Positions 2,771 through 63,770 of a stretch of DNA of 64,000 bases are shown here, piece by piece. Positions within the stretch are counted from its first letter, which is position 1. Each line of letters begins with the position of its first letter. The position numbers and the translations under genes are program-made. This stretch comes from Paenibacillus sp. FJAT-29882 (GTDB lineage Bacteria; Bacillota; Bacilli; Bacillales; DSM-1321): assembly GCF_001510645.1 (NCBI RefSeq), contig NZ_LMVB01000001.1, positions 453,854-517,853 on the forward strand, written 5' to 3'. Below the pieces are notes generated by a model. That model searched no databases, was not told where the DNA came from, and was given only the letters and a program-made list of their open reading frames with translations.

Positions 2771-3016
2771 ATAAAGTGAAACTTCAATCAGTGGGGGGCT
2801 TTATCCCCCGCCGGTTGTTAGTCCCGTTTTAGAGTCGCTAATATCTCCGCTACGCTTTGATAAAGCCCGATTGGTTCAACTAAACCTTTGAAAACCACAA
2901 AGGTAAGTTTCACTTTATCTCACCAATCGGGCTTTTACGGGCAGTTATCCTCCACCTACGCTTCTTTGATTCCTCTAAGCCTTGAGGTGGGAGCCTGTCC
3001 GTTAATGCGGGATAAA
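2771..3016. repeat. Dispersed mosaic repeat, family 1 copy A
   Basis: Begins ATAAAGTGAAACTTCAATCA and ends GTTAATGCGGGATAAA, the two ends shared with the other family members here. Inside is a 14-bp stem AAAGCCCGATTGGT (2862-2875) / ACCAATCGGGCTTT (2922-2935), which encloses a second inverted AAGTTTCACTTTAT end (2905-2918). A CACCTAC...GAGGTGGG module follows. It has no coding potential. Confidence 0.8.
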
Positions 3017-3222
3017 GAGATAGGAATTCACTCAAATTGTTAGGGAAACGTAGATTTGTTGCGTACCTCCATAACATTATTATTGTAACCGATTTTCTGT
3101 ATTCTGTTGCATGTAATGGTTTGAGAGGAGAAATAATTTTCACTCGTGAAAAAATTTGTTATTCTAAGACTACGATGAGGAAGGAATATGTATCATAATT
3201 GTGGAAAATGTTTAGGGATGAT

Positions 3223-3247
3223 GTTTATCTCAGAACGGAAAGGGTAT
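3223..3247 (+). promoter_or_regulatory. SigmaB-type promoter for ytxG-ytxH
   Basis: GTTTAT, a 13-bp spacer, then GGGTAT match the general-stress SigmaB consensus (GTTTAA-N12-15-GGGTAT). It lies 61 bp upstream of the ytxG start. In B. subtilis the ytxGHJ cluster is a known general-stress operon, which supports the call. Confidence 0.7.
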
Positions 3248-3307
3248 TGATAAGAACAGACAAAATATGGTGTAAACATAAGTGAGACATTTTTCGGAGG
3301 TATTGAT

Positions 3308-3811
3308 ATGGAGATCATTTTATACTTGAGTGCTGCCGTTTTCGCAATTGCTTTTTTCATTTTAGTTATTTTTTTAGCCAAAACGTTAAAATCGCTGCAA
3401 TTTACACTTGATAGTGTGTCGAAAACACTAACGGGGCTAGAAAGCCAAATGCAAGGTGTGTCACTTGAGACGACGCAATTATTGCATAAAACAAACGCAC
3501 TCGCAGAAGATTTACAAAAGAAATCAGAAAACTTAAATACCGTGGTAGATGCAGTGAAGGATGTAGGAAGTTCCATCCAAAGCTTTAATACATCTGTTCA
3601 AAAAGTTTCACATAAGGTACAGCATGAAATCGAGAATAATCAAGATAAGATTTCCCAGATTGTTCAGTGGACAAATGTTGCGATGGAAATCCGCGATAAG
3701 TGGAAATCTAAGAAAAAGCAGACTGTGACAGCTGAGGAGCCATCTTACAGGCAAGAAGAGGATCTAGAATCAGACAAAATAGTCAAAAGACGTTTCTTAC
3801 GTTCTAGATAA
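3308..3811 (+). CDS. ytxG: YtxG, DUF948 membrane-anchored stress protein
   Basis: 167 residues. One N-terminal membrane segment (about residues 3-24, [20 protein letters not shown]) is followed by a long helical cytosolic region and a basic C-terminus (KRRFLRSR). This is the layout of the DUF948/YtxG family. GGAGG lies just before the ATG. It heads the ytxG-ytxH pair, with 50 bp between them, behind a SigmaB-like promoter. The molecular function of the family is not established; membership in the general-stress regulon is known from B. subtilis. Confidence 0.85.
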
Positions 3812-3861
3812 TACGTAAGAAAAAGAAAACAATTAAATACAAAGTTGAGAGGAGAATGAAC

Positions 3862-4440
3862 ATGGCACAAAAAGAATTCCCGGTTAAGGATTATACGAAG
3901 GATTACGAAAGGGCAAATGAAGAGCGTAATTCTGGTAACTCTTCAGGATTTATTGTTGGGGCTGTGGTTGGAGGCGTTATTGGTGCTTGCTGTGCCTTAT
4001 TCATGGCTCCTAAAACGGGGAAAGAATTGAGGAGCGACGTCACTGAACAAGCGAAATCAATAAGTCAGAAAACAGAAAAACTTCGTCGTGTTGCGATTGA
4101 AAAAGGCAACGGAATTGCCGAAACGGCTAAAGAAAAAAGCAGTTCTGTAACACAGCTTGTTAGTGATAAAGGTTCTGACTTATTGGATAAAGTATCAAGC
4201 TTAAAGCCTGGCGTTAAAATAGGAGAAGAATTAAGTAAAAAAGAAGGTATCGAAAGTTTAGCAGATGATAAAGGAAGTTTCGGTCATCGTTCAAAAATCA
4301 AAAGTGTTGAAGTGAAACATGTACCAGATGCAGAAAAGTCAACAGCTAAGGATCCTAAAAAGGGTAACAAAAGTGCGGCTCAACTGCTTGATGAGACTGA
4401 AAAGGCATTTGAAGAAACAGAAACGAAGTATAAACAGTAA
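3862..4440 (+). CDS. ytxH: YtxH-domain general stress protein
   Basis: 192 residues from the chosen start. An upstream in-frame ATG at 3856 is one base from GGAG and too close; the ATG at 3862 has 7-bp spacing and gives MAQKEFPVKDY. Residues ~30-55 form the glycine-rich hydrophobic YtxH signature (SGFIVGAVVGGVIGACCALF then MAPKTGKELR). A Lys/Glu/Ser-rich, probably helical tail follows, resembling hydrophilic stress proteins. Role unknown beyond stress induction. A strong hairpin separates it from ytxJ. Confidence 0.85.
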   Translation: MAQKEFPVKDYTKDYERANEERNSGNSSGFIVGAVVGGVIGACCALFMAPKTGKELRSDVTEQAKSISQKTEKLRRVAIEKGNGIAETAKEKSSSVTQLVSDKGSDLLDKVSSLKPGVKIGEELSKKEGIESLADDKGSFGHRSKIKSVEVKHVPDAEKSTAKDPKKGNKSAAQLLDETEKAFEETETKYKQ

Positions 4441-4448
4441 ATTTGTCA

Positions 4449-4492
4449 AAACTGGCGCTGAAATGATAGGCTAATTTCAGCGCCAGTTTTTT
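4449..4492 (+). terminator. Intrinsic terminator after ytxH
   Basis: The stem AAACTGGCGCTGAAAT / ATTTCAGCGCCAGTTT is followed by a T run. It lies between ytxH and ytxJ, so ytxJ expression depends on read-through or its own promoter. Confidence 0.85.
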
Positions 4493-4522
4493 TGTGATCA
4501 TACCTAAAAAGGAGTTGCTGAG

Positions 4523-4849
4523 ATGACATTAGTGAAAATTGAAACAGAAGAACAGTTTAATGAATTAGTTAAAGAGGATTCATTCCTTCTCTTTAAGCAT
4601 AGTTTAACGTGCCCTGTTAGCGCGGAGGCCTTTACAGAGTATCAAAGGTATATTGATGAGCACAATGATGTTAAGACAGCTTATTTAGCTGTTCAGGAAG
4701 CACGTCCGCTTTCTGCTTATATTGCGGAAACCTTCGATGTGAAACACCAATCACCACAAGCGATTTATTTTAAAGCTGGCAAGCCTGCTTGGAATGAGTC
4801 ACATTGGAGAATCACTGTGGATTCGCTGACAGAGGCAGCAAGGGATTAA
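4523..4849 (+). CDS. ytxJ: YtxJ, bacillithiol-linked monothiol redox protein
   Basis: 108-residue thioredoxin-fold protein of the YtxJ (DUF2847) family. The single candidate active Cys lies in HSLTCPVS (about residue 31), a monothiol form of the CPxS-type site; no second Cys follows, as expected for a monothiol bacilliredoxin-like protein. AAAGGAG precedes the ATG. The family is associated with bacillithiol redox control, so this gene suggests that the organism makes bacillithiol. It is the third gene of the ytxGHJ stress cluster. Confidence 0.85.
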   Translation: MTLVKIETEEQFNELVKEDSFLLFKHSLTCPVSAEAFTEYQRYIDEHNDVKTAYLAVQEARPLSAYIAETFDVKHQSPQAIYFKAGKPAWNESHWRITVDSLTEAARD

Positions 4850-4878
4850 AGTTAACCAGAAGATATTTTGTAATGAAT

Positions 4879-4955
4879 GGCCAGACCCACATCTCTTATA
4901 GATCGTTTAGATGACTTAATAAACGGTATATAGAGTGTAAGGTCTGACCTTTTTT
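4879..4955. terminator. Family 2 palindrome between convergent ytxJ and FtsA-like gene
   Basis: The arms GGCCAGACCCACATCT and GAGTGTAAGGTCTGACC flank an ATCGTTTA...TAAACGGT core and end in TTTTTTC. It lacks the outer GAGGCTGTCCC arms. It sits between two convergent genes and can serve both. Confidence 0.7.
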
Positions 4956-4957
4956 CT

Positions 4958-7120
4958 TTATTTCAGTGATGATGTCGGCCAAAGGATGTTTAGTTCATCT
5001 CCAGGAGCAAGCGTTTCGTTGAAGGTTGTTTCTTGATTGTTTTTTTGTAACAGAAATCCTCCATTTGTGTGTTCTGGCATGTCAATGTCAATATGCATGA
5101 ATACATCCTGAAAAATAAACGGCTCCATTTTATGTCGAACGAGGGTAATCATATCCCCCTGGTTGATGACATCTTCATTCGTTAGGGGCTGTCCATTACG
5201 ATAAAACTGAGCGAGCTTCTTAGTGAGCTGTAGTTTTTTTCCGTTGAATGCAACTGGGATCGAACATGTGAGCTGAACTTTCATCGCATATGCCAAGTCA
5301 GTAGTAAGTGGCCGGGACGACTGGATCATTTCAATCACATCACCATCTTCGTATGAACTTGCAGGATTTGTTAGAATACCATTTTTGACAATTTTGCCAC
5401 CGAATAAAGGGAGGGGAACTTCCTTTTCATTCACATTAACCGTAAATGGCTGTAAACTTCTCAACAGATGTTCTTGATTGGTCTTAGTAAAAAGTTCTAC
5501 TAGTGTTCCTGGCATCGTACATGTTATTTTATCATTGTCATGAAGGGATTCCTCTCCTGTAACAATCTGATCATTACGGCGTAGTTCGGCATGAATGATG
5601 TATGAAACGCCATGAATCGTGACCTGTTTACTTGGCAATCCATCTGAAAGGTCAATAATCGCCAATCTAGGTGACCGACCATCTTCCCCTTGCTGGACTG
5701 TGATTTTATCGCCATCTTGAACGATGTAATCTAATGAAACGTCCTTGTGGTTTATTGTTAGGATCGGTTTTGTCCCATGCTCGCCTGGGATCGTAATTAA
5801 TTGGCCGTTGAACTCAACCATCATGGCCATGCCAGGTCTTCCATACAATTTATTCAATTTTATCCCCGCAGTTAGCAGACAATCCCCTACTGTCATTTCT
5901 TTCATATCAAAGAGACGGATCGTTTGACCGTTCACGTTCACGCCCATATATTGAATCGGACTTTTATGAGCGGCTATAGCAATGCCGATTGGTGTAACGA
6001 GCTCAGGACCACGGTGTACATGATCGGCAATTGTGAGCTGTCCAATGGCTTCAATCCCTCGGATCGCGACACGATTTTTCGGAAGATTTAATTTGTCAGC
6101 CAGAATTTCAGGAAGCTTTGGGGTTAGACTGCCACCGCCAACTAGCATCACAGCCTTTGGTGACTTATTGTTATTTAAAGAAAAAATTTCCTCACAAATA
6201 GTGTCTGCCAATTTTTCAATGGAAGGCATGATACTTTCGATTACTTCAGTCCTTGGTATTTCCGTCTCAAACCCTAGAATATCGGTTACAGTTATCATAT
6301 CCTGATCAATCAACTGCCTCTTAGCGGTTTCTGCTAACGGAAAATCGAGTAGAAATGAGTCACTGATGGCTTCAGTAATTTCATCGCCAGCAATCGGTAC
6401 CATACCATAGGCAATTACGGTTCCTGAGTCTGTTAAGGCGATGTCAGAAGTCCCGGCTCCGATATCCACGAGCGCGACATTTAGTCGTCTCATCGACTGT
6501 GGGATCAGTACATTGATGGCAGCAATTGGCTCAAGCGTCAATGCTTGCATATGTAAATCTGCTCGTTTCAAAGCGGCAAGTAAACTTTCAACGACCACTT
6601 TTGGAAGGAAGGTTGCAATAATTTCCACAGAGGCTTGTTCGCCACTTTGATCGATTAAGCTTGTGATTTCTTGACCATCAAGTCGATAATATAAAACAGA
6701 GTATCCGACACAATAATAATGATGGCTTGAATTGGAGTTATTTTTTTCAGCCACAACGGCTTGCGCTATTTGAACGGCACTTAATTCAAGATGAAGAATA
6801 TCATCGTGCTGGAGCATCGGTTTTCCTTTAATATCAATGCTGATTGCGGCACGCTCTGTTTTAAGTGCACGTCCGGCTGCAGCCACCGATACACTGGTAA
6901 GTTTGCCGTGTTTCTTTTCCAATGTGTCTTTAATGGTTTGAATGACCTTTGAGACAGCGATCACATCGTGGATTTGTCCGTCGAGCATAGCTCGTTCACG
7001 ATGTTCCATTGAAACAATATCTGTTACTTCAAATGAATCAGCCGTTTTTTCTAAAATAATTCCTACAACGGAACGAGTACCAATATCAAGCGCGAATAGT
7101 TTTTCGTGCACAAAAAACAC
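4958..7120 (-). CDS. FtsA/PilM-like actin-fold ATPase with long C-terminal extension
   Basis: 720 residues. Residues 1 to ~360 carry the actin/FtsA-type ATPase fold: phosphate-1 motif ALDIGTRSVVG near the N-terminus, phosphate-2 VALVDIGAGTSDIAL near residue 218, and adenosine motif AVMLVGGGSLTPKLPEIL near residue 325. An SHS2-like region lies in between. The remaining ~350 residues repeat a small beta-rich module of the type 'DGDxI', 'NGQLITIPG', 'EVPLPLFGG', unlike classical FtsA (about 440 residues). It has no FtsA C-terminal membrane helix. It stands alone, not beside ftsZ. The family is annotated in Bacillaceae as cell division FtsA-domain protein; its function is not known to me. Confidence 0.7.
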   Translation of the reverse strand: MFFVHEKLFALDIGTRSVVGIILEKTADSFEVTDIVSMEHRERAMLDGQIHDVIAVSKVIQTIKDTLEKKHGKLTSVSVAAAGRALKTERAAISIDIKGKPMLQHDDILHLELSAVQIAQAVVAEKNNSNSSHHYYCVGYSVLYYRLDGQEITSLIDQSGEQASVEIIATFLPKVVVESLLAALKRADLHMQALTLEPIAAINVLIPQSMRRLNVALVDIGAGTSDIALTDSGTVIAYGMVPIAGDEITEAISDSFLLDFPLAETAKRQLIDQDMITVTDILGFETEIPRTEVIESIMPSIEKLADTICEEIFSLNNNKSPKAVMLVGGGSLTPKLPEILADKLNLPKNRVAIRGIEAIGQLTIADHVHRGPELVTPIGIAIAAHKSPIQYMGVNVNGQTIRLFDMKEMTVGDCLLTAGIKLNKLYGRPGMAMMVEFNGQLITIPGEHGTKPILTINHKDVSLDYIVQDGDKITVQQGEDGRSPRLAIIDLSDGLPSKQVTIHGVSYIIHAELRRNDQIVTGEESLHDNDKITCTMPGTLVELFTKTNQEHLLRSLQPFTVNVNEKEVPLPLFGGKIVKNGILTNPASSYEDGDVIEMIQSSRPLTTDLAYAMKVQLTCSIPVAFNGKKLQLTKKLAQFYRNGQPLTNEDVINQGDMITLVRHKMEPFIFQDVFMHIDIDMPEHTNGGFLLQKNNQETTFNETLAPGDELNILWPTSSLK

Positions 7121-7357
7121 CTTCTTTAGACTAAAATATACTTTAATGCTTAAAAGCGTTTAATTAATAAAGAAAAAAATAGTGACAATTCAAAAATTTT
7201 CATTTATAATAAATGAAATTATATAAAAACAGTAACATATTTTTTCAATTCATAACAGATTCCGGACGTGAATGATAAAAACTTGCCAGCCTCTCATAAA
7301 TCATGAAGCAGCTCTGTTTTTTTAATTGGTTAACCGGAAAGGAAAGGGTGGATTATT

Positions 7358-8437
7358 TTGAGTAATAATGATTTGGAACTTTTGCGTGAGAAATTAGATG
7401 ATGTGAATTTGGAGTTATTACATCTTATTAACAAACGTGCTGAACTTGTACAAGAAATTGGCCAAGTGAAAGAAAAACAAGGGATTAACCGATATGATCC
7501 GGTTCGTGAACGAAAAATGTTGGATTCAATTGAGGATCATAACCAAGGACCACTAGATCTTGCATCACTTAAACATATTTTCAAAGAAATCTTTAAAATG
7601 GGTCTAGGTTTACAAGAAGAGAATCAGAAGAAAGCATTGCTTGTATCTCGCCAGAAAAAAGCGGAAAATACAGTGGTTGACTTGAAGGGCGAGCTAGTTG
7701 GAAATGGTATTCCAAGCTTTGTGTTTGGTCCTTGTGCCGTTGAATCGTACGAACAAGTTGCTCAGGTTGCTGAAGTAGTCAAAGCAAAAGGGCTTAAACT
7801 ACTTCGCGGTGGTGCTTATAAACCTCGTACTTCTCCATATGATTTCCAAGGTCTTGGCCTTGAAGGATTAAAAATCTTGAAGCAAGTTGGTGACAAGTAC
7901 GACTTAGCTGTTATCAGTGAAATTGTCAGCGCGAATGATATTGAAACAGCGCTTGATTATGTTGATGTGATTCAAATCGGTGCACGAAATATGCAAAACT
8001 TTGACCTATTAAAAGCTGCTGGAAAGGTGAATAAACCGGTTCTTTTAAAACGCGGACTTGCTGCTACGATTGATGAGTTCATCCATGCAGCTGAATATAT
8101 CATGGCACAAGGGAATGGCAACATCATTCTTTGTGAGCGTGGAATTCGTACGTATGAAAGAGCAACGAGAAATACATTAGATATTTCAGCTGTTCCAATT
8201 TTAAAACAAGAAACGCATTTACCTGTCATGGTTGATGTTACACATTCAACTGGTCGCCGTGATCTATTGCTTCCAACTGCAAAAGCAGCTATAGCAATTG
8301 GTGCAGATGGGGTAATGGCAGAAGTTCACCCTGATCCAGCAGTCGCACTATCTGACTCTGCGCAGCAAATGGACTTCAAACAGTTTGATGAGTTTTATAA
8401 AGAAATTCAAAAAATGTTGACTAGAGTAACTGTATAA
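7358..8437 (+). CDS. aroA: Bifunctional chorismate mutase / DAHP synthase
   Basis: 359 residues, the usual length of the Bacillus AroA (AroG) fusion. Residues ~1-90 are an AroQ-type chorismate mutase ([20 protein letters not shown]). Residues ~105-359 are a type I-beta DAHP synthase with [39 protein letters not shown] and [11 protein letters not shown]. The enzyme condenses PEP and erythrose-4-phosphate, the first step of aromatic amino acid synthesis; the mutase domain allows feedback by chorismate/prephenate. The start is TTG, with AAAGGGTGG five bases upstream; no ATG fits. In B. subtilis it lies next to ccpA; here ~5 kb of accessory DNA separates the two. Confidence 0.95.
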
Positions 8438-8450
8438 ATTGATTTACTAA

Positions 8451-8570
8451 AGAGAGGCTGTCCCATAATAAAAGAGTTAGACACCACATCTCCTATACAT
8501 TGTTTAAAAGATACAATAAACGGTGTATAGAGTGGGAGGTCAGACGCTTTTGGGACAACCTCTCTTTTTT
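8451..8570 (+). terminator. Family 2 nested palindrome behind aroA
   Basis: The outer arms AGAGAGGCTGTCCCA / TGGGACAACCTCTCT enclose GTTAGACACCACATCTCC / GGAGGTCAGACGC and an inner ATTGTTTAAAAG...CAATAAACGGT core. The right outer arm runs into TTTTTT. It begins 13 bp after the aroA stop codon. Confidence 0.85.
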
Positions 8571-13282: not shown

Positions 13283-13345
13283 ATAAAGTGAAACTACCAC
13301 TAGTGGGGTGTAGTTCCACACTGGTTGTTAGTTGAACAGGATAAA
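13283..13345. repeat. Family 1 repeat copy B, short
   Basis: Starts ATAAAGTGAAACTACCACTA, contains GTGGGGTGTAGTTCCACACTGG and GTTAGTT, and ends AACAGGATAAA. It is a degenerate 63-bp copy with both ends recognisable, upstream of ccpA. The remainder of 12977-13426 shows no gene. Confidence 0.55.
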
Positions 13346-18588: not shown

Positions 18589-18632
18589 AAAAGATCCTCT
18601 AAGGCATTTTGTGAGTGCTTAAGAGGATTTTT
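18589..18632 (+). terminator. acsA terminator
   Basis: The stem GATCCTCTAAGGCA.../...TGCTTAAGAGGATT is followed by TTTTTTA, 15 bp after the acsA stop. Confidence 0.8.
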
Positions 18633-18911
18633 TTATCCCGGTTTAACAGGCTGTAAAACCCCCACCTCAATTTTTGTGAGAGAATCAAGAAATAAATAGG
18701 TGGGGGATGAAAAAAAACCCACTGATGGAAGTTTCACTTTATCTGGTTTAACTGACTGTAATACACTAAAGAAATCTACACCACGCTATATTGTCGCACT
18801 TTTGCAATCGCCATCATTTTGAAGTGTATCCTCGCTTAACAAGGTATTAGTGGCGGTAGAGCGGGACTAGTGAACAGTGGGGGAAAACGACTGATGGAAG
18901 GTTCACATTAT
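18632..18911. repeat. Family 1 repeat copy C, two tandem members
   Basis: The first member (18632-18741) begins TTTATCCCGGTTTAACAGGC and ends GATGGAAGTTTCACTTTAT, with an inner CCCCCACCTC / AGGTGGGGG stem. The second (18742-18911) begins CTGGTTTAACTGACTGTAAT and ends GATGGAAGGTTCACATTAT, more diverged. Together they fill most of the acsA-tcyP gap. Confidence 0.75.
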
Positions 18912-23452: not shown

Positions 23453-23592
23453 CTATCATACCCCCTGAAATCAGATACATTATAGCATATATCCGTATTT
23501 AGAAGGGGGATTTTCAAGTATTTCTATAGGTTGTTGAACTTGACATAGCATTTAATATATGATAAAAAATCATTAACTAGAATTTTATTAGG

Positions 23593-23832
23593 AAAGCAAT
23601 GAGAGGACTAAAGTAGTCAAACTATCCCTGTTTTAGAGAGCCGGTGGAAGGTGTGAATCGGTACACATAGTTTAGATGAATTACTTCCTTGAGCATTTGC
23701 TGTGAACGTTAAGTAGCAGTAAACGGTAGACCGCCGTTAACGGTTTTAAGACGGAGGATGAAGTATGTCCTCAAGTTGGGTGGTACCGCGAATATATTCG
23801 TCCCTTCATTTATGAAGGGGCGTTTTTATTTG
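23593..23832 (+). ncRNA. Tyr T-box leader of tyrS
   Basis: T-box riboswitch that reads uncharged tRNA-Tyr. Stem I contains GAGAGCCGGTGG and the specifier TAC (23682-23684) in GAATTACTTCCTTGAG. The T-box sequence GGGTGGTACCGCG (23778-23790) pairs with the tRNA acceptor end. The terminator (CGTCCCTTCATTTATGAAGGGGCG, described by its arms CCCCTTCAT pairing at 23799-23825) and a T run follow. When tRNA-Tyr is uncharged the antiterminator forms and tyrS is expressed. Confidence 0.93.
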
Positions 23833-23843: not shown

Positions 23844-25118
<1,275 letters not shown>

Positions 25119-27042: not shown

Positions 27043-27097
27043 TTTACCCCGCATTAATGGGTAGTAAACCCCCCACTGATTGAAGTTTCACTTTATA
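27043..27097. repeat. Family 1 repeat copy D, minimal 55-bp form
   Basis: TTTACCCCGCATTAATGGG at one end, CCCCCCACTGATTGAAG in the middle, AAGTTTCACTTTATA at the other end. It shows that the two ends alone can exist as a unit. Confidence 0.75.
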
Positions 27098-33379: not shown

Positions 33380-33571
33380 GTTCAAAAAGTCCGGTGAAAA
33401 AGCTTGCGAATTGCACCAAAGCTCATGAAAGACCTTCTGTTAAAATCGCGCACGTCATGACGAGCAACACAGAAGTCAGCACATCCTGTGCAAGTCCGGT
33501 TACTGTATACGCGAAAGGTTGAGACGATCGCACCTCGAACTTCTCGGCTCTTTTTATCCTCCTTTTTGAAC
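33380..33571. repeat. GTTCAAAAAG-ended element, long copy (192 bp)
   Basis: Begins GTTCAAAAAGTCCGGTGAAA and ends TTTTTATCCTCCTTTTTGAAC, so its 10-bp ends are inverted. The inside includes GACCTTCTGTTAAAATCGCG and CGAACTTCTCGGCTC. A 70-bp internally deleted copy lies inverted at 46327-46396. No reading frame. Confidence 0.75.
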
Positions 33572-39443: not shown

Positions 39444-39698
39444 AATGCCTCCAATTACCTTTCTGAGATTTATTGGGTTATCATAATGTCCAAAGTAAGG
39501 TCTTGTCAATGCAAAAATAAAATCTTTATAAAACTTTAAAATCAGGTGAAATACGTAGAATTACTACGTGAAATAGAGTTATTGTGTGAATATTCGATTA
39601 ATCATCCTGTATTTGGATGAATTTGAACATATCTAGTACTTTTGATGAGTTTACAATGATTACACAGCGGGCGTACAATAATTCTCATAAATAACAAA

Positions 39699-39870
39699 TT
39701 TGATATCGGCCCAATCTTAATTAATTGAGAACGGAGGACCCACTAATTTGGGATTAATTCTGCTTTTGCAGAAAGGATGAGATACTCTTTCGCCATCCTA
39801 CCCGAAAGCTTTCTTCGCAGGCTTAGCGAAGGAGTTCATAAGACTACCTAATTTAAGGGGGCTTTTTTGT
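39699..39870 (+). ncRNA. c-di-AMP riboswitch (ydaO/yuaA type)
   Basis: Conserved blocks appear in the expected order: ATTGAGAACGGAGGACCCAC, TTTGGGATTAATTC, AGGATGAGATACTCTTTCGC, CCATCCTACCCGAAAGCTTT, then CTTCGCAGGCTTAGCGAAGG, and lastly GGGGGCTTTTTT as likely terminator end. In B. subtilis this class controls ktrAB and other K+ uptake genes and shuts them off when c-di-AMP is high. Here ktrD starts about 410 bp further on, with repeats in between. Ends approximate. Confidence 0.8.
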
Positions 39871-39993
39871 TGTGAGTGAAGCAAGAAAGCAGCCTAATGA
39901 ACAATCTGTAGGTCTTTTTAATATATGTAAATATGAAAAAGTTTCTTGGATGATAGAACGCAAAGAGAGTGGATAACTTGCTGGGCGTTAAGT

Positions 39994-40131
39994 AGACCAA
40001 TGAGTACTTTTTCTCCAATCAACATGTTGTTTTGGCAAGCATTCAATACCATTGTGTGAATCGTTTGGTTTACCGCTGGAATCTTGAATGATAGTGCATG
40101 ACTGCATTATGGAGAAAAGTACCATTGGTCT
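39994..40131. repeat. Palindromic element between riboswitch and ktrD
   Basis: AGACCAATGAGTACTTTTTC(TCCA) pairs with (TGGA)GAAAAGTACCATTGGTCT, and an inner GCAAGCATTCAA pairs loosely with TTGAATGATAGTGC. The right arm is followed by TTTTTGG, so as RNA it could end transcription. Confidence 0.6.
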
Positions 40132-40162
40132 TTTTGGTGTTTAATCTGCTTTTCCCTTTTTG

Positions 40163-40216
40163 ATAAATTGAAACTTCGTTCAGTGGGGGACTTGACTCTC
40201 CGTTAATGCGGGATAA
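40163..40216. repeat. Family 1 repeat copy E, minimal 54-bp form
   Basis: ATAAATTGAAACTTCGTTCA at the left, GTGGGGGACTTGACTCTCC in the middle, GTTAATGCGGGATAAA at the right: both family ends with almost nothing between. Confidence 0.75.
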
Positions 40217-40282
40217 ATAATTTTATGACGCTGCAGAATGGAATGATGCTCTATTCAATATTTTAATAAGTGGGAGATCATT

Positions 40283-41620
40283 ATGACAAAAATAACAGAT
40301 TTTCTAACCCCGCCAAAAATTCTTGTATTGGGCTTTGCGGCCGTAATTTTAATAGGTGCATTCTTACTCACACTTCCCTTCTCAACAGAAGATGGAGTCG
40401 GTCTCTCGTTCTTGAATGTTTTATTTACCGCAACATCTGCTACATGTGTGACAGGGCTTGTCGTTGTAGATACAGGAAGCACATTTAGCAGTTTTGGCGA
40501 GATTGTCATATTACTGCTCATTCAAATCGGCGGATTAGGGTTTATGATAGTTGCAACTTTTTTCTTTTTTCTTTTAGGCAAAAGAATATCACTGAAAGAA
40601 AGATTATTACTTCGAGAAGCGTTAAACCAATTATCGATGGAGGGCATTGTCAGGTTAGTAAAAAGAGTGTTGATTTTTACAGGAGCGATCGAGCTTGTCG
40701 GTGCTATTATTTTATCGATCCGTTTTTCTTTTGATATGCCGATTGGTCGAGCGATTTACTTTGGCATTTTTCATTCAATCTCCAATTTTAATAATGCAGG
40801 TTTTGATTTACTGGGAGGATTTCGGAGTTTGACCCCGTACGCAGAAGATCCAACGGTCGTGCTAACCGTTTGTGCGCTTATCACATTAGGGGGAATTGGT
40901 TTTATCGTAATGAATGAACTTTATGAATATCATGATACAAAACGCTTATCTGTGCATACGAAATTGGTATTACTGACTAGTCTAATTTTAACTGTAGGTG
41001 GGGCCATCATAATCTTCATTTTTGAATATGGCAATGATAAAACATTAGAGCCTTTATCCTATCTTGGAAAAGGATTAGCAGCCTTGTTTCAATCGGTGAC
41101 AGCGAGAACAGATGGAGCTAATACATTGAATATTTCAGACTTAACACAACCAACATTATTTCTGACGATTATCCTGATGTTTATTGGCGCTTCTCCGGGT
41201 TCAACAGGTGGCGGAATTAAAACGACTACCTTTGCTACTTTACTTGGAACCGTCTTTTCACAAATTAAAGGAAAAGAAGATGTCGTCTTCTTTCATAAAC
41301 GCATTGTTTTTGACACGATATTTAAAGCGCTTACTGTAACGGTAAGTGGATTATTCCTTGTTATTACCATGACCATGCTACTGAGTATCACGGAAAAAGG
41401 CCATGATTTTATGATGTATCTATTTGAAGCGACTTCAGCGTTCGGCACAGTAGGTCTATCGATGGGATTAACCCCAGAACTATCACCTATTGGTCGTGTA
41501 CTCATTATATTGACGATGTTCGCAGGAAGATTAGGTCCTTTAACGATTGCTTTTGCCATTGCTATGAGGCGTAAACCGGATGCATTTCGTCATCCAAAGG
41601 GGAAAATAATGATCGGTTAA
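40283..41620 (+). CDS. ktrD: KtrD-type K+ channel subunit
   Basis: 445-residue membrane protein of the Trk/Ktr/HKT family, four pore repeats. Selectivity-filter regions ATSATCVTGLVVVDTG, SISNFNNAGFDL, SVTARTDGANTL and ATSAFGTVGLSMGLTPE are visible, with the intramembrane loop GASPGSTGGGIKTTTFA. The N-terminal STEDGxGLxFL and C-terminal RKPDAFRHPKGKIMIG fit B. subtilis KtrD rather than KtrB. It imports K+ with Na+ and needs a KtrA/KtrC ring, encoded 26 bp downstream. B. subtilis ktrC and ktrD are unlinked; here they form an operon behind a c-di-AMP riboswitch. GTGGGAG is the ribosome site. Confidence 0.93.
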   Translation: MTKITDFLTPPKILVLGFAAVILIGAFLLTLPFSTEDGVGLSFLNVLFTATSATCVTGLVVVDTGSTFSSFGEIVILLLIQIGGLGFMIVATFFFFLLGKRISLKERLLLREALNQLSMEGIVRLVKRVLIFTGAIELVGAIILSIRFSFDMPIGRAIYFGIFHSISNFNNAGFDLLGGFRSLTPYAEDPTVVLTVCALITLGGIGFIVMNELYEYHDTKRLSVHTKLVLLTSLILTVGGAIIIFIFEYGNDKTLEPLSYLGKGLAALFQSVTARTDGANTLNISDLTQPTLFLTIILMFIGASPGSTGGGIKTTTFATLLGTVFSQIKGKEDVVFFHKRIVFDTIFKALTVTVSGLFLVITMTMLLSITEKGHDFMMYLFEATSAFGTVGLSMGLTPELSPIGRVLIILTMFAGRLGPLTIAFAIAMRRKPDAFRHPKGKIMIG

Positions 41621-45308: not shown

Positions 45309-45312
45309 TTAG

Positions 45313-45397
45313 TTATCCCGCATTAACGGGCAGTAAAACGGGACTAACAATCAGTAGGGGATGAAGAAAACCCCTACTGATTGAAGTTTCACTTTAT
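45313..45397. repeat. Family 1 repeat copy F
   Basis: TTATCCCGCATTAACGGGCA, GGGACTAACAATCAGTAGGGG / CCCCTACTGATTGAAG (hairpin), ending GTTTCACTTTAT. Its right end contains the TAA stop of the NAD kinase gene (45394-45396). Confidence 0.85.
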
Positions 45398-54047: not shown

Positions 54048-54054
54048 AATATAT

Positions 54055-56718: not shown

Positions 56719-57160
56719 ATAAAGTGAAACTTTAATCAGTGGGGGGCTTTATCCCACTGATTGTTAGTCCCGTTCTAGTGTCGCTAATACCTCCACTTCG
56801 CTTCGGTAAAGCGACACTACGAACCTGTTCAATGAACTCAGACTAAGTACGCCGCATCCTGCGGCAACGTCTGAGTGACCCACATCCTGTGGGCCTCAAC
56901 TAAACCTTTGAAGACCACAAAGGTAAGTTTCACTGTATCTCACCAATCGGGCTTTTACATAAAAAGTGAGGCGACTGCCCAGCCCCGACAAGCATAAGCT
57001 GGAATACGGCGTGGCGTAGTTTGCCACAGAGTATTACAGCTTATGACCTCAGATGGGTTAGGAGCCGCAACTAGATTGGGCAGTTATCGCCCAACTACGC
57101 GCTACTTCGATTCCTCTAAGATATGAGGTGGGTGGTTACTGCCCGTTAATGCGGGATAAA
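56719..57160. repeat. Family 1 repeat copy G, longest mosaic
   Basis: Starts ATAAAGTGAAACTTTAATCA, with hairpin AATCAGTGGGGG...CCCACTGATT. An inner block holds AACCTTTGAAGACCACAAAG and GTAAGTTTCACTGTATCTCA, shared with copies A and H. Inserted blocks follow (ACGCCGCATCCTGCGGCAACG; TAAGCTGGAATACGGCG...). It ends GCCCGTTAATGCGGGATAAA. It lies 23 bp before the EcsC-family gene. Confidence 0.8.
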
Positions 57161-57183
57161 AGGCTTTTTAGGAGGGTTAGGAA

Positions 57184-58026
57184 ATGGGCATGACAAATCG
57201 GGAAATTCAAGTCTGGAATGAAATAGGCGAATGGGAGCAAAAGCTTTATCAATACGAGCCGACAGATTTAACAGTGATGTATGATAAATGGCTTGAACAA
57301 AGCTTTTCCTTGCTTCCTGAAGATGTTCGGACACGTTTTTTTGCGAAAATGGATACAATGCTCTTTCATTTACATGCATTGGTGCAAAGTTCGCAGATTC
57401 AGATGGATGCTAGAGACAGAATTTTAGAAGCAGCGCGGGTTTATAATCCTGAAGTCGAAAAGATTGCTGATATGAACCTTTTACCCATTGATCAATTGAA
57501 TTACATAGCGACACAGCAAATCGCGAGACATAGACTGTATTCATTTGCCCAAGGCGGAGCAAGTGGGTCAGGCGGTCTTATTCTGTTAGGAAGCGATATT
57601 CCAGCGATGACGTTCATTAATGTTCGTGTTGTTCAGTTGACAGCCATAACGTACGGCTTTGAAGTGAATACTCCGTTTGAAATGATGATGGCCCTCAAGG
57701 TTTTTCATATTGGCAATATGCCGAGACGCCTTCAAGGGGCTGCATGGCAGGAATTAATTAATGAAACACATCAAGATGGTGAAGAATATTTTTACGAAGG
57801 AAGCGAGGATTTAACAAACATTACTTGGATGGAGCAACCTTTAAAGCAATTGCTGAAGGCCGGAGCGATTACCATGTTTCGAAAAAAACAGATCCAAGGT
57901 GTTCCACTGCTTAGCATGCTAATTGGGGCGGGCTCTAATTACCGAATGACACGGCAAGTGAGTGAATTCGCGCAAAAATATTATCAATATCGTTATTTGC
58001 AGAAAAAGAGAGTAGTCAATGAATAA
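57184..58026 (+). CDS. EcsC-family protein
   Basis: 280 residues. LPIDQLNYIATQQIARHRLY, SFAQGGASGSGGLILLGSDI, PAMTFINVRVVQLTAITYGF and the C-terminal GVPLLSMLIGAGSNYRMTRQ mark the EcsC family, named after the third gene of the B. subtilis ecs operon. Moderately hydrophobic glycine-rich segments may associate with the membrane. No ecsAB ABC transporter genes are nearby, so this is a stand-alone paralogue; function unknown. GGAGGGTTAGGAA gives the ATG. The dispersed repeat upstream leaves only ~20 bp of unique leader. Confidence 0.85.
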   Translation: MGMTNREIQVWNEIGEWEQKLYQYEPTDLTVMYDKWLEQSFSLLPEDVRTRFFAKMDTMLFHLHALVQSSQIQMDARDRILEAARVYNPEVEKIADMNLLPIDQLNYIATQQIARHRLYSFAQGGASGSGGLILLGSDIPAMTFINVRVVQLTAITYGFEVNTPFEMMMALKVFHIGNMPRRLQGAAWQELINETHQDGEEYFYEGSEDLTNITWMEQPLKQLLKAGAITMFRKKQIQGVPLLSMLIGAGSNYRMTRQVSEFAQKYYQYRYLQKKRVVNE

Positions 58027-58171
58027 AAGCTACTGGAGACCGTAACTTAAAACTTACTTAACAAGGACACGTTGCTTATTTGAGCTTTGTGTCTTTTTTT
58101 GCTTATGTAGCAAGCTAATTTGAAAGGAAAGAAATCTTCAGAAGAATCGGTGTTTAATCTCTAAATTGTGC

Positions 58172-58200
58172 TTGCAATCTTTTTTTAAAACTGGTAAAGT
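58172..58200 (+). promoter_or_regulatory. argGH promoter
   Basis: -35 TTGCAA (58172), 17 bp, -10 TAAAGT (58195), upstream of the ARG box. Confidence 0.65.
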
Positions 58201-58231
58201 ACTAATTAAGAGATGTATAAAAATAATAAAT

Positions 58232-58249
58232 TATGAATTTTTATTCACA
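58232..58249. promoter_or_regulatory. ARG box (AhrC/ArgR operator)
   Basis: TATGAATTTTTATTCACA fits the ARG-box consensus TNTGAATWWWWATTCANW at every position. A weaker box may lie directly upstream at 58212-58229. Arginine-bound AhrC would repress argGH. Confidence 0.85.
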
Positions 58250-58270
58250 TAAAAAGGGGACGATACAATC

Positions 58271-59482
58271 ATGTCAAATCAAAAAGTAGTGTTAGCATAT
58301 TCCGGAGGTCTAGATACTTCTGTAGCGATAAAATGGTTGCAAGGTCAAGGATACGATGTTGTAGCATGTTGTTTAGATGTTGGAGAAGGAAAAGACTTGG
58401 ATTTTATTAAAGAAAAAGCACTTCAAGTAGGCGCTATTAAATCCTATGTAATCGATGCGAAAGACGAGTTTGCGGATGATTACGCACTTGCAGCACTTCA
58501 AGCACACACGTTATACGAAGGGAAATATCCACTTGTTTCTGCACTTTCTCGTCCGTTGATTTCGAAAAAGCTTGTAGAAGTGGCAGAGATGGAAAACGCT
58601 GTTGCAGTGGCACATGGTTGTACGGGAAAAGGAAATGACCAAGTCCGCTTTGAAGTATCGATCCAAGCATTGAATCCAAATCTTACGGTTCTTGCTCCAG
58701 TGCGTGAATGGAAATGGTCTCGTGAAGAAGAAATCCAATATGCGATTGAAAATGATATTCCAATTCCAATCAACTTAGACAGCCCATACTCCATCGACCA
58801 AAACCTATGGGGAAGAAGCAATGAATGTGGCATACTAGAAGATCCATGGGCCGCTCCACCAGAAGGTGCATATGATCTAACGGCAAGACTTGAAGATACT
58901 CCAGATACACCTGAAGTAATTGAAATTGGTTTTGAACAAGGTGTTCCCGTTACACTGAATGATAAACAGTATAAACTAGCAGACTTAATTGTTGAATTGA
59001 ATACATTAGCTGGTAAACATGGTGTTGGCCGAATCGACCATGTTGAAAATAGATTAGTAGGAATTAAATCACGTGAAGTGTATGAAGCACCTGCTGCGAT
59101 GACATTAATTACCGCACATAAAGAACTTGAAGACATTACTTTAGTTAAAGAAGTTGCTCATTTCAAACCAGTGATTGAGAAAAAGTTGACTGAGCTTATT
59201 TATGAAGGACTATGGTTCTCACCTCTTCAAAGCGCACTATCAGCATTTTTAAAAGACACACAAAAAACGGTAACAGGTACAGTGCGTGTGAAACTATTCA
59301 AAGGCCATGCGATTGTAGAAGGTAGAAAATCCGAGTACTCTCTTTATGATGAAAAATTGGCAACTTATACGAAGGACGATGAATTTGACCATGATGCAGC
59401 TGTCGGCTTCATTAAGCTTTGGGGTCTACCAACAAAAGTTAGCAGTATCGTAACCAACCAAAACAAGAAGGTGACTGTGTGA
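58271..59482 (+). CDS. argG: Argininosuccinate synthase
   Basis: 403 residues (B. subtilis 403). The N-type ATP pyrophosphatase loop [17 protein letters not shown] is at the N-terminus, then [14 protein letters not shown] and [16 protein letters not shown]. It joins citrulline and aspartate using ATP. Its stop overlaps the argH start by 4 bp. Controlled by an ARG box. Confidence 0.97.
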
Positions 59483-60852
59483 GTAAGTTATGGGGAGGCA
59501 GATTTACGAAGTCTGCTGAAGAATGGGTAGATGAGTTTGGCGCATCGATCTCGTTTGACCAAGAACTCGTACTTGAAGATATTCAAGGCAGCCTTGCTCA
59601 TGTGGCGATGTTGAAGAAAAGCAGTATTTTACCTGGAGAAGATGCAGACCTGATTACGTCAGGGCTGCTTACTCTTCAAGAAAAAGCAAAAAAAGGCGAG
59701 CTAACTTTTAAGGTAGAGATGGAGGATATTCATCTTAACCTAGAAAGCATGCTCATTTCTGAAATTGGTCCAGTAGGTGGGAAGCTGCATACAGGTCGAA
59801 GTCGGAATGACCAAGTGGCGACAGATATGCATTTGTATCTGCGCAACCAAACAGATGATGTTTTGGGCTTAATTGCGGCCTTGCAAACAGCTCTACTTGA
59901 GCAGGCTGAGAGCCATGTTGAAACATTAATTCCTGGATATACCCATTTACAACGTGCACAGCCGATTTCATTTGCCCATCATGTTATGGCTTATTTCTGG
60001 ATGTTGCAGCGTGACAAAGAGCGATTTACGGAAAGTTTGAAACGAATTAATGTTTCTCCGCTTGGAGCAGGAGCGTTAGCTGGGACAACCTTTCCAATCG
60101 ATCGAGCGTATAGTGCTGAGTTACTTGGATTTGACGCAATCTATGAAAATAGCTTGGACGCCGTGAGTGACCGGGATTTTGTGCTTGAATTTCTTAGTAA
60201 CAGTAGCACATTAATGATGCATCTTTCCCGTTTTAGCGAAGAAATCATTCTTTGGTCTAGTCAAGAGTTTCAATTTATTGAGTTAGATGATGCCTTTTCA
60301 ACGGGAAGCAGCATTATGCCTCAGAAAAAAAATCCCGATATGGCTGAGCTGATTCGTGGGAAAACAGGGCGTGTGTATGGCAATCTTACAGGTCTTTTAA
60401 CCGTTTTGAAAGGACTGCCGCTTGCTTATAACAAAGATATGCAAGAAGATAAAGAAGGCATTTTTGATACGGTGAAAACGGTCATCGGCTCTTTGAAAAT
60501 TTTCGAAGGCATGATTTCCACGATGAAAGTAAATGCCCATGTCATGGAGAAGGCAACGAAAAACGACTTCTCTAATGCAACGGAATTAGCGGATTATTTA
60601 GCAGCGAAAGGGATGCCTTTCAGAGAAGCGCATGAAGTGGTCGGTAAACTAGTGCTATCATGTGTGAACCAAGGTTGCTATCTTGCGGATTTAACTTTGG
60701 AACAGTTCAAAGAAGCGTCAGATTTGTTCAATGAAGATATCTATCAAGCTCTTAACCCGTATGAAGCAGTAAAGCGCCGTAACAGCGCCGGCGGAACAGG
60801 ATTTGAGCAAGTTAAACTAGCGATTCAAAAAGGGAAAGAGCTAGTGAAGTAA
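59479..60852 (+). CDS. argH: Argininosuccinate lyase
   Basis: 457 residues. [58 protein letters not shown] ([12 protein letters not shown]) and the superfamily signature [12 protein letters not shown] with the catalytic Ser. It splits argininosuccinate into arginine and fumarate. Start is GTG within GTGA overlapping the argG stop, with AAGGTGACTG as ribosome site; translation is coupled to argG. Followed by a family 2 palindrome. Confidence 0.97.
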
Positions 60853-60857
60853 AAAAA

Positions 60858-60968
60858 ACGGGTCAGACCTCACACTCTATATACCGTTTATTGACTCATT
60901 TACGAGTCGTATAAACGATATATAGTTGATGTGGGGTCTGACCCTTTTGTTATGGGACAGCCTCTTTC
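60858..60968 (+). terminator. Family 2 nested palindrome behind argH
   Basis: CGGGTCAGACCTCACACTCT / TGATGTGGGGTCTGACCC with core ATATACCGTTTATTGACTCA / CGAGTCGTATAAACGATATA, then GGGACAGCCTCTTTC. The left outer arm is missing. Located between convergent argH and the stress protein gene, 5 bp after the argH stop. Confidence 0.8.
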
Positions 60969-60978
60969 ATCATTCTAC

Positions 60979-61419
60979 TTAATCGGTACGAACGATAAGA
61001 ACATCACAATTCGCATTGCGGACGATGTTTTCAGAAACGCTACCTATTAGGAAGCGTTCTACTGCATTCAGTCCAGTGGCTCCGCAGACGATGAGGTCGA
61101 TATGATGTTTTATAGCGATATCTTTAGGGATGATCGTTTTCGGTGAGCCGTATTCAATGATTGTTGCCACTTCTTTGACACCGGCTTTTTCCGCCATTTC
61201 TTTATAGCCACTCAAAAGTTCAGATGCGTAGTCTTCAACGCTGTCTCCGATCGGGCTATTAAAGGCTTCAGTTGACGGGAAATTCCGAGCATCCACGATA
61301 TGGGTTAGCACGAGTGCTGCATCGTTACGAAGAGCGATTTCACTACCTTTTTGCAAAGCCCATTCTGCTTCTTTAGAACCATCTACCGCAACTAGAATTT
61401 TTTTATACGTCATTGTCAT
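60979..61419 (-). CDS. Universal stress protein family
   Basis: 146-residue UspA-fold protein. KKILVAVDGSKEAEWALQKG at the N-terminus and the ATP-binding G-2x-G-9x-G-S motif in GATGLNAVERFLIGSVSENI place it in the ATP-binding subclass. Start at ATG 61419 after GGGGGAG; two upstream Met codons lie before or within the ribosome site. A dispersed repeat lies upstream. Exact role unknown. Confidence 0.9.
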   Translation of the reverse strand: MTMTYKKILVAVDGSKEAEWALQKGSEIALRNDAALVLTHIVDARNFPSTEAFNSPIGDSVEDYASELLSGYKEMAEKAGVKEVATIIEYGSPKTIIPKDIAIKHHIDLIVCGATGLNAVERFLIGSVSENIVRNANCDVLIVRTD

Positions 61420-61485
61420 ATTAATCTCCCCCTTCATCAAATTGCCTGACGAACTTTACGATCAAAATCGAATGAATAAGAAACT

Positions 61486-61735
61486 TTATCCCGGTTTAAC
61501 AGGCTGTAATACCCCCACCTCAAATTTTTGTGAAAGAATCAAGAAATAAATAGGTGGGGATAAACAGCCTGTAAATCCCCGATTGGTGAGATACAGTGAA
61601 ACTTACCTTTGTGGTTTTCAAAGGTTTAGTTGAACCAATCGGGTTCGTAGTGTCGCTTTATCGAAGATTTAGCGACAGTAGAACGGGACTAACCATCAGA
61701 GGGGGATGCCCCCCTCTGATGGAAGTTTCACTTTA
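61486..61735. repeat. Family 1 repeat copy H
   Basis: Starts TTTATCCCGGTTTAACAGGC. It has a CCCCCACCTC...AGGTGGGG stem and a CCCGATTGGTGAGATACAGTG...GAACCAATCGGG stem, shared with copy A in the other orientation. It ends in hairpin CCATCAGAGGGGG / CCCCCTCTGATGG and AAGTTTCACTTTA. Its right end contains the TAA stop of the M24 peptidase gene (61733-61735). Confidence 0.85.
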
Positions 61736-62830
61736 CTTAATGATTTGCAGCGTTTTCGGATATTTGGTTAACACTTCTGCGCCATTTTCAGTTACATAAA
61801 TATCGTCTTCAATTCGAACACCGGCAACATTTGGTACGTAAATACCAGGTTCGATTGTATAGACCATGCCTGATTTCAAAAGAAGCGGGTTTGTTTCAGT
61901 CAAGGAAGGAAATTCGTGTACACTGATTCCTAAGCCATGACCAAGACGATGCGGGAAATAATCTCCATATCCTTTGTCACGAATGATGTTACGAGCCGTT
62001 AAATCGATTTCGGCACAAGAAACACCAGGCTTACTTGCTGCAATCGCTGCTTCCTCTGCTTTTAGAACTGTTTCATAAATTTCCCGTTGCTTGTCTGAAA
62101 TGTCTCCATATGCAACAGTTCGGGTAATATCGGAGCAATAGCCTTCGTAGACAACACCTAAGTCAAATAGGACAAAATCACCGCGCTTAACTTTCGTAGC
62201 TCCAGGTGTTCCATGTGGAGACGCTGCATTGGCACCTGTTAGTACCATGGTTGAAAATGACATATTTTGTACGCCTGCTTTTTTCATTTCATATTCAATC
62301 GCAGCTAAGATTTCCATTTCTGTTTTGCCTTCTTTAATCTCTGATACCCCAATTTCGATCGCGTAATCAGCAAGACGGCATGCTTCTCGTATTTTTTTCA
62401 TTTCATCTTCTGTTTTAACCATTCGAAGCTCACGCAATTTCTCTTCAGCGGCTACTAGTTCAGGAACAGAGAAGATCATTTGGACTTTTTCTAGTCGTTC
62501 CACATTTAAATGTTCTTTTTCAATGGCCAGTCTTTTTACATTCACAGAACGACGGCCTACCGCAAGTTTGATTTCTTCCCAAGGATCTTCAATATCCGTG
62601 TAGCCAATAATTTCCCCTGCCCAACCTGAACGCTTCGCATCTTCAGTTTCCATCTTAGGGCAAACAAGGATTGGTTCAGCCTCTTGGAAAACAGCTAATG
62701 CAAGCAGTCTTTCGTGAGGGTCGCTCAAGAAGCCGCTCAAATAAAACACATTATCTGGTGCCGTAATCAAAGCAGCATCCAGTCCACTTGTTTGTAACCA
62801 TTGTGTTAATTCAGTTAATTTTGTATTCAT
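61733..62830 (-). CDS. M24-family Xaa-Pro dipeptidase/aminopeptidase
   Basis: 365 residues. A creatinase-like N-terminal domain is followed by a pita-bread catalytic domain. Metal ligands: the two Asp in VLFDLGVVYEGYCSDITRTV, His in HRLGHGLGISVHEFP, Glu in YTIEPGIYVPNVAG and Glu in VRIEDDIYVTENG. It cleaves bonds before proline in peptides. B. subtilis has YkvY and YqhT of the same family; which orthologue this is cannot be decided here. GGAGGC precedes the ATG. Its stop codon falls in the end of a dispersed repeat. Confidence 0.9.
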   Translation of the reverse strand: MNTKLTELTQWLQTSGLDAALITAPDNVFYLSGFLSDPHERLLALAVFQEAEPILVCPKMETEDAKRSGWAGEIIGYTDIEDPWEEIKLAVGRRSVNVKRLAIEKEHLNVERLEKVQMIFSVPELVAAEEKLRELRMVKTEDEMKKIREACRLADYAIEIGVSEIKEGKTEMEILAAIEYEMKKAGVQNMSFSTMVLTGANAASPHGTPGATKVKRGDFVLFDLGVVYEGYCSDITRTVAYGDISDKQREIYETVLKAEEAAIAASKPGVSCAEIDLTARNIIRDKGYGDYFPHRLGHGLGISVHEFPSLTETNPLLLKSGMVYTIEPGIYVPNVAGVRIEDDIYVTENGAEVLTKYPKTLQIIK

Positions 62831-63059
62831 CTTTTTATTGCCTCCAGTAGTAAGATCATATTAAATCCTATTCATAAACCTTATCAATAAAAAAAAGCAA
62901 AGTAAACTATTTTGGAATAGGAAAAGTCGTTTGGAAAATGAGGTTTACGATCTTGAAAGAAGGGCATCTATTAAAGAATAGTCATTTTTAAAAAGGTGAA
63001 AGGGACTTGGGAGCGAAATTAGAATAGTCGATAAAATAGGTATGAAGGGAGTTTTTATT

Positions 63060-63743
63060 TTGAAAGTATCTTTTCACGGACATTCAGTAGTGAAGATCGA
63101 AACGAACGGGACGACGATTTTGTTTGACCCTTTTATTAATGGAAACGGACAGACCGATTTAAAAGTAGAGGATGTCCATCCGGATGTCATCATTTTGACA
63201 CATGGGCATGGGGATCATCTTGGTGATACAGTGGAGCTAGCCAAAAAACACGATGCACTTGTGATTGGCTCAGCTGAGATGGCCTATTACCTCGGCACAC
63301 AAGGTGTCGAACGGACACATGGCATGAATATTGGCGGGGCTTATGAGTTTGAATTTGGTCAAGTAAAGTTGACAACTGCCTTTCATAGCAATAGCTTTAT
63401 CACGAATGACGGACAGATTATATATCTTGGTATGCCTAGTGGCGTCTTGTTTACAGCAGAAGGAAAAACGGTTTATCACGCTGGAGACACTGCGTTGTTT
63501 TCCGACATGAAGTTGATTGGTGAACGTCATCCAATTGATCTTGCCCTTTTGCCCATTGGTGATAATTTTACAATGGGGCCTGAAGATGCAGCACTGGCGG
63601 CCGAATACTTACAGGCGAAACAAGTTGTGCCGATTCACTATAATACGTTTCCGCCCATCAAGCAGGATCCGCAGAAGTTTCTCGATTTACTAAATGCAGG
63701 CAATGGAAAAGTGCTTGAACCGGGAGATTATATCGAGCTTTAA
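63060..63743 (+). CDS. ytkL: YtkL, UPF0173 metal-dependent hydrolase
   Basis: 227 residues, exactly the B. subtilis YtkL length from the chosen start. A metallo-beta-lactamase fold with [10 protein letters not shown] (HxHxDH), [18 protein letters not shown] and [11 protein letters not shown] giving all metal ligands. The substrate is unknown. Start is TTG at 63060, 8 bp after AAGGGAG; an ATG at 63042 lies inside the ribosome site. 11 bp after the stop lies an isolated family 1 end. Confidence 0.92.
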
Positions 63744-63754
63744 TTCCTTCAAAC

Positions 63755-63770
63755 AAAGTTTCACTTTATA
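63755..63770. repeat. Family 1 solo end
   Basis: AAAGTTTCACTTTATA, the conserved end without the rest of the element, right after ytkL. Confidence 0.5.

Follow-up and report, generated by a model that had tools for sequence, protein, structure and literature searches.

A mobile, non-coding, bcr1-like element seated at ATAAA sites in Paenibacillus sp. FJAT-29882 and other Bacillota

A dispersed repeat in the genome of Paenibacillus sp. FJAT-29882, here called family 1, is a genuine element, both mobile and non-coding. It was noticed in a stretch of 64,000 nt (the window, by which we mean the whole stretch), where copies share a first, or left, end (end A) and a right end (end B). In its features family 1 looks like bcr1 (Bacillus cereus repeat 1). 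We consider it probable that family 1 is a non-coding, non-autonomous element of the bcr1 kind at ATAAA sites, and that an enzyme supplied in trans would most likely move it as a folded single strand.

An earlier note on this DNA had proposed a mobile unit and a comparison of orthologous gaps in related strains. We compared the source genome (G000) with two close relatives (G009 and G029); over the stretches read all three show synteny, and length-weighted identity is 86 and 88% (matches >800 bp). Among 114 pairwise tests of elements carrying ends A and B, 19 sites were empty, 43 were occupied, 16 were unclear and 36 had no alignable flanks; two nested pairs were counted separately in these tests, and the 19 empty sites correspond to 14 distinct elements. 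These empty sites exclude the outcome that the note had named as contrary to mobility, namely copies at the same fixed positions in all relatives. The residue at the empty sites was exactly 5 bases in 11/19 cases and 4-6 bases in 17/19, and reads ATAAA or a near variant; ATAAA is found about once at an empty site and twice, at both element ends, at an occupied one. Outside this 5-mer, no strong base preference flanks the insertion sites. A 5-mer present once when the site is empty and twice when it is occupied, with no preference in the flanks, fits cut-and-join at a fixed short site.

Within the window, the copies at 2771, 18632 (a tandem pair), 27043 and 56719 face an empty site in G009, and the 56719 site is also empty in G029. 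The comparison also showed that the short forms are themselves inserted. Empty sites were found for three 54-bp copies of the 53-55-bp deletion form (window 27043; 169527 and 378274 in G029) and, in G009, for two 63-bp copies of the ~63-bp single-hairpin form (596712 in the source genome, and 653391, where the right-flank alignment is poorer).

The element is abundant in its source genome. Allowing up to two mismatches in end A and up to three in end B, we called eight A-B pairings in the window (seven elements after removal of nested pairings) and none in 20 first-order Markov controls. The genome (5.3 Mb) contains 173 exact copies of the 14-base first end and none of its reversed control. 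In the 1.657 Mb (31%) of the source genome where elements were called, 107 were found; a few of these may be spurious, because the reversed control also yields single ends there (214 versus 61 for A; 168 versus 43 for B). Their sizes peak at 50-59 bp (30 copies) and 150-159 bp (15 copies). Gene prediction placed 56 of 57 called copies between genes. In tandem arrays neighbouring copies have one 5-mer, ATAAA, in common, as in a run of four copies with a period of 150 (C1:2596008-2596612).

The ends read ATAAA-GTGAAAC on the left and CGGG-ATAAA on the right. Comparison of the two revealed no terminal inverted repeats, bearing out the earlier observation that they are not inverted copies of each other. 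Stringently called copies have ATAAA at both ends in 110 of 177 cases and at one end in 50 more. Two hairpins are predicted in 48 copies of 120-165 bp, and this anatomy of the ~150-bp form is supported by compensatory changes: 20 of 42 pairs were changed on both sides, in 81 cells, compared with means of 9.3 and 19.7 and maxima of 15 and 32 in 200 shuffles. Hairpin 1, whose foot is GTGAAACT / AGTTGAAC, was aligned from 27 copies of Bacilli and other classes. In this alignment 95.5% of cells are paired and nine of 19 pairs are doubly changed (27 cells); shuffles gave means of 3.2 pairs and 5.5 cells, and 0/500 reached the observed values. The rows were picked by pattern, so that sequence conservation stems partly from selection of the rows, and the shuffles ignore relatedness. 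Hairpin 2 has a 5’ foot of AATC or TTATCC and a 3’ end ...GATAAA; the foot (ATC, or TTATCC in other classes) would be able to pair with the GATAAA on the right.

Between the fixed ends, inner blocks are optional: some copies have the Bacillaceae-1 RNA block or a second, inverted hairpin 1, and others do not. Because these blocks vary among copies, only the ends are needed. By description, this plan resembles the BOX elements of Streptococcus pneumoniae, which are likewise modular, with ends that are fixed and inner blocks that may be missing.

One of these inner blocks is a catalogued RNA family. A scan for Bacillaceae-1 RNA (RF01690) over the window and 21 of 60 syntenic loci (484 kb) gave seven hits, six of which lie inside family-1 elements in the same orientation, four with both ends and two with degenerate ends. 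This suggests that RF01690 is largely part of a mobile element, although the RNA is only one optional block of family 1. The seventh hit (window 33424-33492, 41.6 bits) lies outside family 1, near words such as GGGGTCTGACTC and GTCTGACCC that recall a different, RAYT-linked repeat of the source genome. In the part of PMC2864571 that was available, Bacillaceae-1 RNA is a table row among candidate structured RNAs, with no mobile element named, and the literature listings, available in part, yielded no link between RF01690 and a mobile element.

We then assessed the distribution of the element. A strict left-end pattern matched six of the 36 genus genomes; four of these hold 23-62 matches, a picture of patchy bursts. 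In the order it matched 36 of 397 genomes, spread over 23 of 135 genera, and in named genomes at least 112 stretches. In a sample of 299 genomes from the phylum, a looser pattern matched eight genomes, six of them outside the class (control, 0). The same sample was searched with a hairpin-1 model built from the 27-copy alignment (R1, E <=0.001): 25 genomes matched. Three belong to the order, none is among the seven further genomes of the class, and 22 are among the 288 sampled from other classes; three of these 22 have at least 18 matches each. Five of the 22 (G466, G495, G499, G514 and G527) had supplied rows of R1, leaving 17 that are independent, and the matches in G446, G462 and G591 are weak. 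Most copies fetched from other classes keep the same plan, including those of the GC-rich G527. Right ends are lineage-specific, that of G353 and G334 being GTTAGACTGCGATAAA. Visual inspection of the 28 sites listed for G011 showed no two-arm pattern.

Extrachromosomal records contributed little: one convincing and four weak matches among 72,556 plasmid records, and none among 50,697 phage records. Prophage contigs of IMG/VR contain copies. R1, built without them, finds bcr1-like copies there, at six loci with E <1e-8 and at two with E of 0.03. A 54-bp element with perfect ends also occurs on a 4.6-kb contig labelled Modestobacter sp. (L064), probably as contamination from a Bacillus relative.

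These features are why we regard family 1 as bcr1-like rather than as proven bcr1; it is filed only as such because the comparison rests on published features and not on a bcr1 consensus sequence. The available portions of the published accounts describe bcr1, group A of bcr1-bcr18, as an element with a TTTAT motif and many intergenic copies, similar to a miniature inverted-repeat transposable element (MITE), 147 bp long (167 bp in a model), mostly chromosomal with plasmid copies also mentioned, and restricted to the B. cereus group. Family 1 agrees in the size of its main form (~150 bp), in its ATAAA, of which TTTAT is the reverse complement, in its presence or absence at orthologous sites, and in being mostly chromosomal by the plasmid and phage record counts. 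A 2004 abstract on bcr1 reportedly gives TTTAT at both ends and a presence that varies between strains. Unlike bcr1, family 1 extends to Peribacillus-like genomes, to many further genera and to other classes, and it has 54- and 63-bp forms, composites of up to 442 bp and lineage-specific right ends. In the portions of the literature available to our search there was no report of bcr1 outside the B. cereus group, those of PMC2229807 and PMC10969869 contained nothing on bcr1, and the end sequence of family 1 was not found in the literature searched. Relative to that literature three points are apparently new: the broad distribution outside the reported group, the mobility of the short forms and the presence of many copies in genomes without a Y1 transposase gene.

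How might such an element move? A copy has the plan ATAAA - hairpin 1 - hairpin 2 ending in GATAAA, and is seated at an ATAAA site. We propose that it is cut out and joined in as a folded single strand by an enzyme supplied in trans, in the way that IS200/IS605 elements move. The active strand would be TTTAT-CCCGC...GAAGTTTCAC-TTTAT, tending to lie on the putative lagging-strand template, with its 5’ TTTAT side behaving like the host target and its 3’ TTTAT like part of the element. The leading strand is G-rich, and the orientation of copies was compared with GC skew: 75 of 116 copies in named genomes (p=0.002) and 67 of 107 in the source genome (p=0.012) agree, so that pooled, the strand TTTATCCCGC... 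lies on the putative lagging-strand template in 142/223 (p=5e-5). The two ends also differ. The right 5-mer is more variable than the left (33 versus 17, p=0.03), mostly at the fifth base (20 versus 5), and at 653391 the empty site in G009 has the same sequence, ATAGA, as the right 5-mer. There is no covariation of the left and right 5-mers: among 23 left 5-mers that are near variants, only one is identical to its right partner. Together, the strand bias, the end asymmetry and the fixed-site pattern suggest single-strand movement with the target on the 5’ side, as in IS200/IS605. Non-autonomous derivatives of that group likewise have subterminal hairpins, no inverted repeats and a short fixed target; they also have a modest lagging-strand bias, to which the orientation of family-1 copies may correspond.

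Several observations weigh against a bcr1-kind element moved as a single strand. The strand bias is only ~64% and is not separable from the local gene majority (74/116, p=0.004); where skew and genes disagree the count is 9/17. There is no bias relative to co-directional flanking genes (29/53), and by segment the agreement is 18/26 in the source genome but 13/24 in G029 and 4/7 in G009. The end asymmetry consists of one borderline test and one site (653391), and for three copies (327788 and 378274 in G029, 596712 in the source genome) the empty 5-mer differs from ATAAA while both element ends are ATAAA. The identity with bcr1 rests on published features, among them the TTTAT at both ends that the 2004 abstract reportedly gives. 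In the available part of a review (PMC3733652), Bcr1 figures with MITEs to which inverted repeats are ascribed, and family-1 copies have none. No autonomous copy or enzyme with family-1 ends was found at the Y1 loci or among ends 0.6-5 kb apart in the stretches read: at none of 42 Y1 loci (20 + 12 + 10) do ends A and B in one orientation bracket the Y1 gene. Some of these loci hold a single end-like word, and one (L236) has an ordinary 54-bp copy ~2 kb away. A and B ends 0.6-5 kb apart (one case; seven in 1.657 Mb) were considered as an autonomous copy and rejected, since they enclose no transposase-like gene, as judged by eye from translations. Words resembling end A with two mismatches beside two IS200-type genes of G003 (L243 and L244) lie within or at the tnpA frame and are apparently there by chance.

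These searches bear directly on the suggestion in the earlier note that the repeat recalls repetitive extragenic palindromic (REP) elements or IS200/IS605-derived units mobilised by a Y1 transposase. A unit that is mobile and non-autonomous, bears hairpins and has no terminal inverted repeats is what we find, but membership of the REP/RAYT group and a Y1 transposase carrying these ends are not borne out; a RAYT or TnpA-Y1 gene flanked by the same ends, for which the note had advised a search, was found at none of the 42 loci. We think it unlikely, though deserving of serious attention, that family 1 is a true REP/RAYT or IS200/IS605 member moved by a PF01797 Y1 transposase that belongs to its present host or belonged to an earlier one. 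The end hairpins without inverted repeats would suit such an element. A Y1 gene is present in 32/36 carriers versus 261/361 non-carriers of the order, a weak association (Fisher p=0.03), and each of the four high-copy Peribacillus-like genomes contains one Y1 match or more. Against it, the single Y1 gene of the source genome is a RAYT flanked by a different repeat, GGGGTCAGACCC; at its locus (L031, G000:C15:131992-135318, match at C15:133492-133818) the RAYT is flanked on either side by a repeat of its own, GGGGTCAGACCCCATTTCCC. Words similar to GGGGTCAGACCCCATTTCCC also occur near Y1 genes of some relatives (L236, L240 and L252). No TnpA gene with family-1 ends was found at the loci searched, and no Y1 match was detected at E up to 10 in G353, G334 and G160 (52, 22 and 2 family-1 matches) or at E up to 0.001 in G527, G696, G117 and G550 (at least 18, 9, 3 and 2). 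Such copy numbers indicate that a resident PF01797 Y1 transposase is not needed for a genome to carry many copies. Loss of the Y1 gene after an old burst could explain these carriers. In line with this, none of 45 pairs among ten copies each from G353 and G334 are identical over the first 70 bases, and recent movement in these two genomes is therefore not shown. REP units and REPINs, which are doublets holding a second inverted hairpin, share with family 1 the form of short dispersed hairpin units, the long family-1 copies likewise holding a second inverted hairpin. The ends of family 1 are ATAAA and not the GTAG or CGTC tag, named in the title of PMC3733652, that REP units have at the hairpin foot.

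Double-stranded movement by a tyrosine or serine site-specific recombinase, with ATAAA as the crossover core, would also leave one core at an empty site and two at an occupied one. We regard it as rather doubtful, because no conserved arms flank ATAAA in the targets; moreover, among 951 clustered proteins encoded near copies, no recombinase or transposase was recognised by eye in the 40 largest clusters. An ordinary MITE, mobilised by a DDE transposase with a 5-bp target duplication preferring ATAAA, is improbable: the 5-base net residue equals such a duplication and Bcr1 is listed among MITEs in the available part of PMC3733652, but the ends are not inverted repeats and the left and right 5-mers are almost never equal in near-variant cases. 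A DDE transposase was absent from the scanned open reading frames (ORFs) of the window, and no search for one went beyond the window ORFs. That family 1 is an immobile, fixed regulatory RNA or terminator repeat is barely credible. It has stable, conserved hairpins, an almost exclusively intergenic location, and in RF01690 a block filed as a small RNA; the empty sites in close relatives and the patchy bursts within the genus contradict immobility. Mobility does not exclude a later regulatory role. Beyond a bcr1-like element moved by an enzyme in trans, we tentatively entertain a broader proposal, in our view possible without being probable: bcr1 may be the best-known branch of a phylum-wide class of folded DNA units, inserted at ATAAA by an enzyme that belongs neither to the known Y1 nor to the DDE transposases, the hairpin-2 foot (TTAT or ATC) pairing with the 3’ GATAAA and the same pairing choosing the target, with RF01690 as cargo.

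Within the window itself, all nine places that the earlier note had listed were located at the sequence level, and its size range was confirmed by a 54-bp and a 55-bp copy at 27043 and 40163 and a 442-bp copy at 56719. The element that it began at 61486 exists, with its true start one base earlier. At 13283 the copy has no GTTAATGCGGG and represents the single-hairpin form, and the end placed at 63755 has no hairpin. All three long copies contain an inverted second left-end hairpin. The first, at 2771..3016 (+ strand, 246 bp), has it at 2874..2918 (-; R1 42.5 bits, E 2.1e-7), and its empty site in G009 retains one ATAAA. The 442-bp composite (56719..57160, +) contains the Bacillaceae-1 RNA module at 56827..56893 (+; 81.3 bits, E 1.9e-13), followed by the inverted hairpin at 56895..56938 (-; R1 29.1 bits, E 3.5e-4). 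In the third, a 252-bp composite at 61485..61736 (-; left-end hairpin R1 E 3.8e-8), the inverted hairpin lies at 61591..61635 (+; R1 37.2 bits, E 3.9e-6).

The shorter copies are more varied. The single-hairpin copy at 13283..13345 (+, 63 bp) has ATAAA at both ends and an R1 E of 2.2e-11, although this copy is itself a row of the R1 alignment; a similar copy is present at the same place in G009 and G029. The tandem pair, absent as a whole from G009, consists of a first copy at 18632..18742 (-, 111 bp) and a degenerate second copy at 18738..18911 (-), with the TTTAT at 18738-18742 common to both. Minimal elements occupy 27043..27096 (-, 54 bp) and 40163..40217 (+, 55 bp); the latter, with the end ATAAATTGAAACTT, is too degenerate for R1. 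It is situated between a c-di-AMP riboswitch (39698-39838) and a TrkH-family transporter gene (region 39698-40283). The 86-bp element at 45312..45397 (-) has its left-end hairpin at 45338-45397 (R1 63.1 bits, E 2.2e-12). A bare 14-base left end at 63756..63769 (-), an exact match without a hairpin and missed by R1, is probably a remnant. In agreement with the earlier note, no transposase was found among 47 of the 57 ORFs of at least 100 aa in the window that were scanned; the other ten, overlapping longer ORFs, were unscanned.

Other features of the window were recorded in passing. Near 39918 a split match shows ~120 extra bases in G009. Window positions 1-1627 and the sequence upstream (G000:C1 ~449260-455480) contain internal near-repeats with ~64-77% identity to many registers in G009, the part within the window being an ORF with a weak EzrA match. 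A T-box leader (23590-23808) lies upstream of a tyrosyl-tRNA synthetase-like gene (23862-25118).

Described so far as peculiar to a single species group, the element now seems to be ancient or to have been transferred widely across Bacillota; AT-rich and GC-rich genomes hold copies of the same anatomy. Its minimal requirement is small, ~27 bp at each end, and pairs of donor copies and empty sites are ready for mobility testing. The distribution also provides a comparative handle on what moves bcr1, since the enzyme must fit genomes that have many copies and no Y1 gene.

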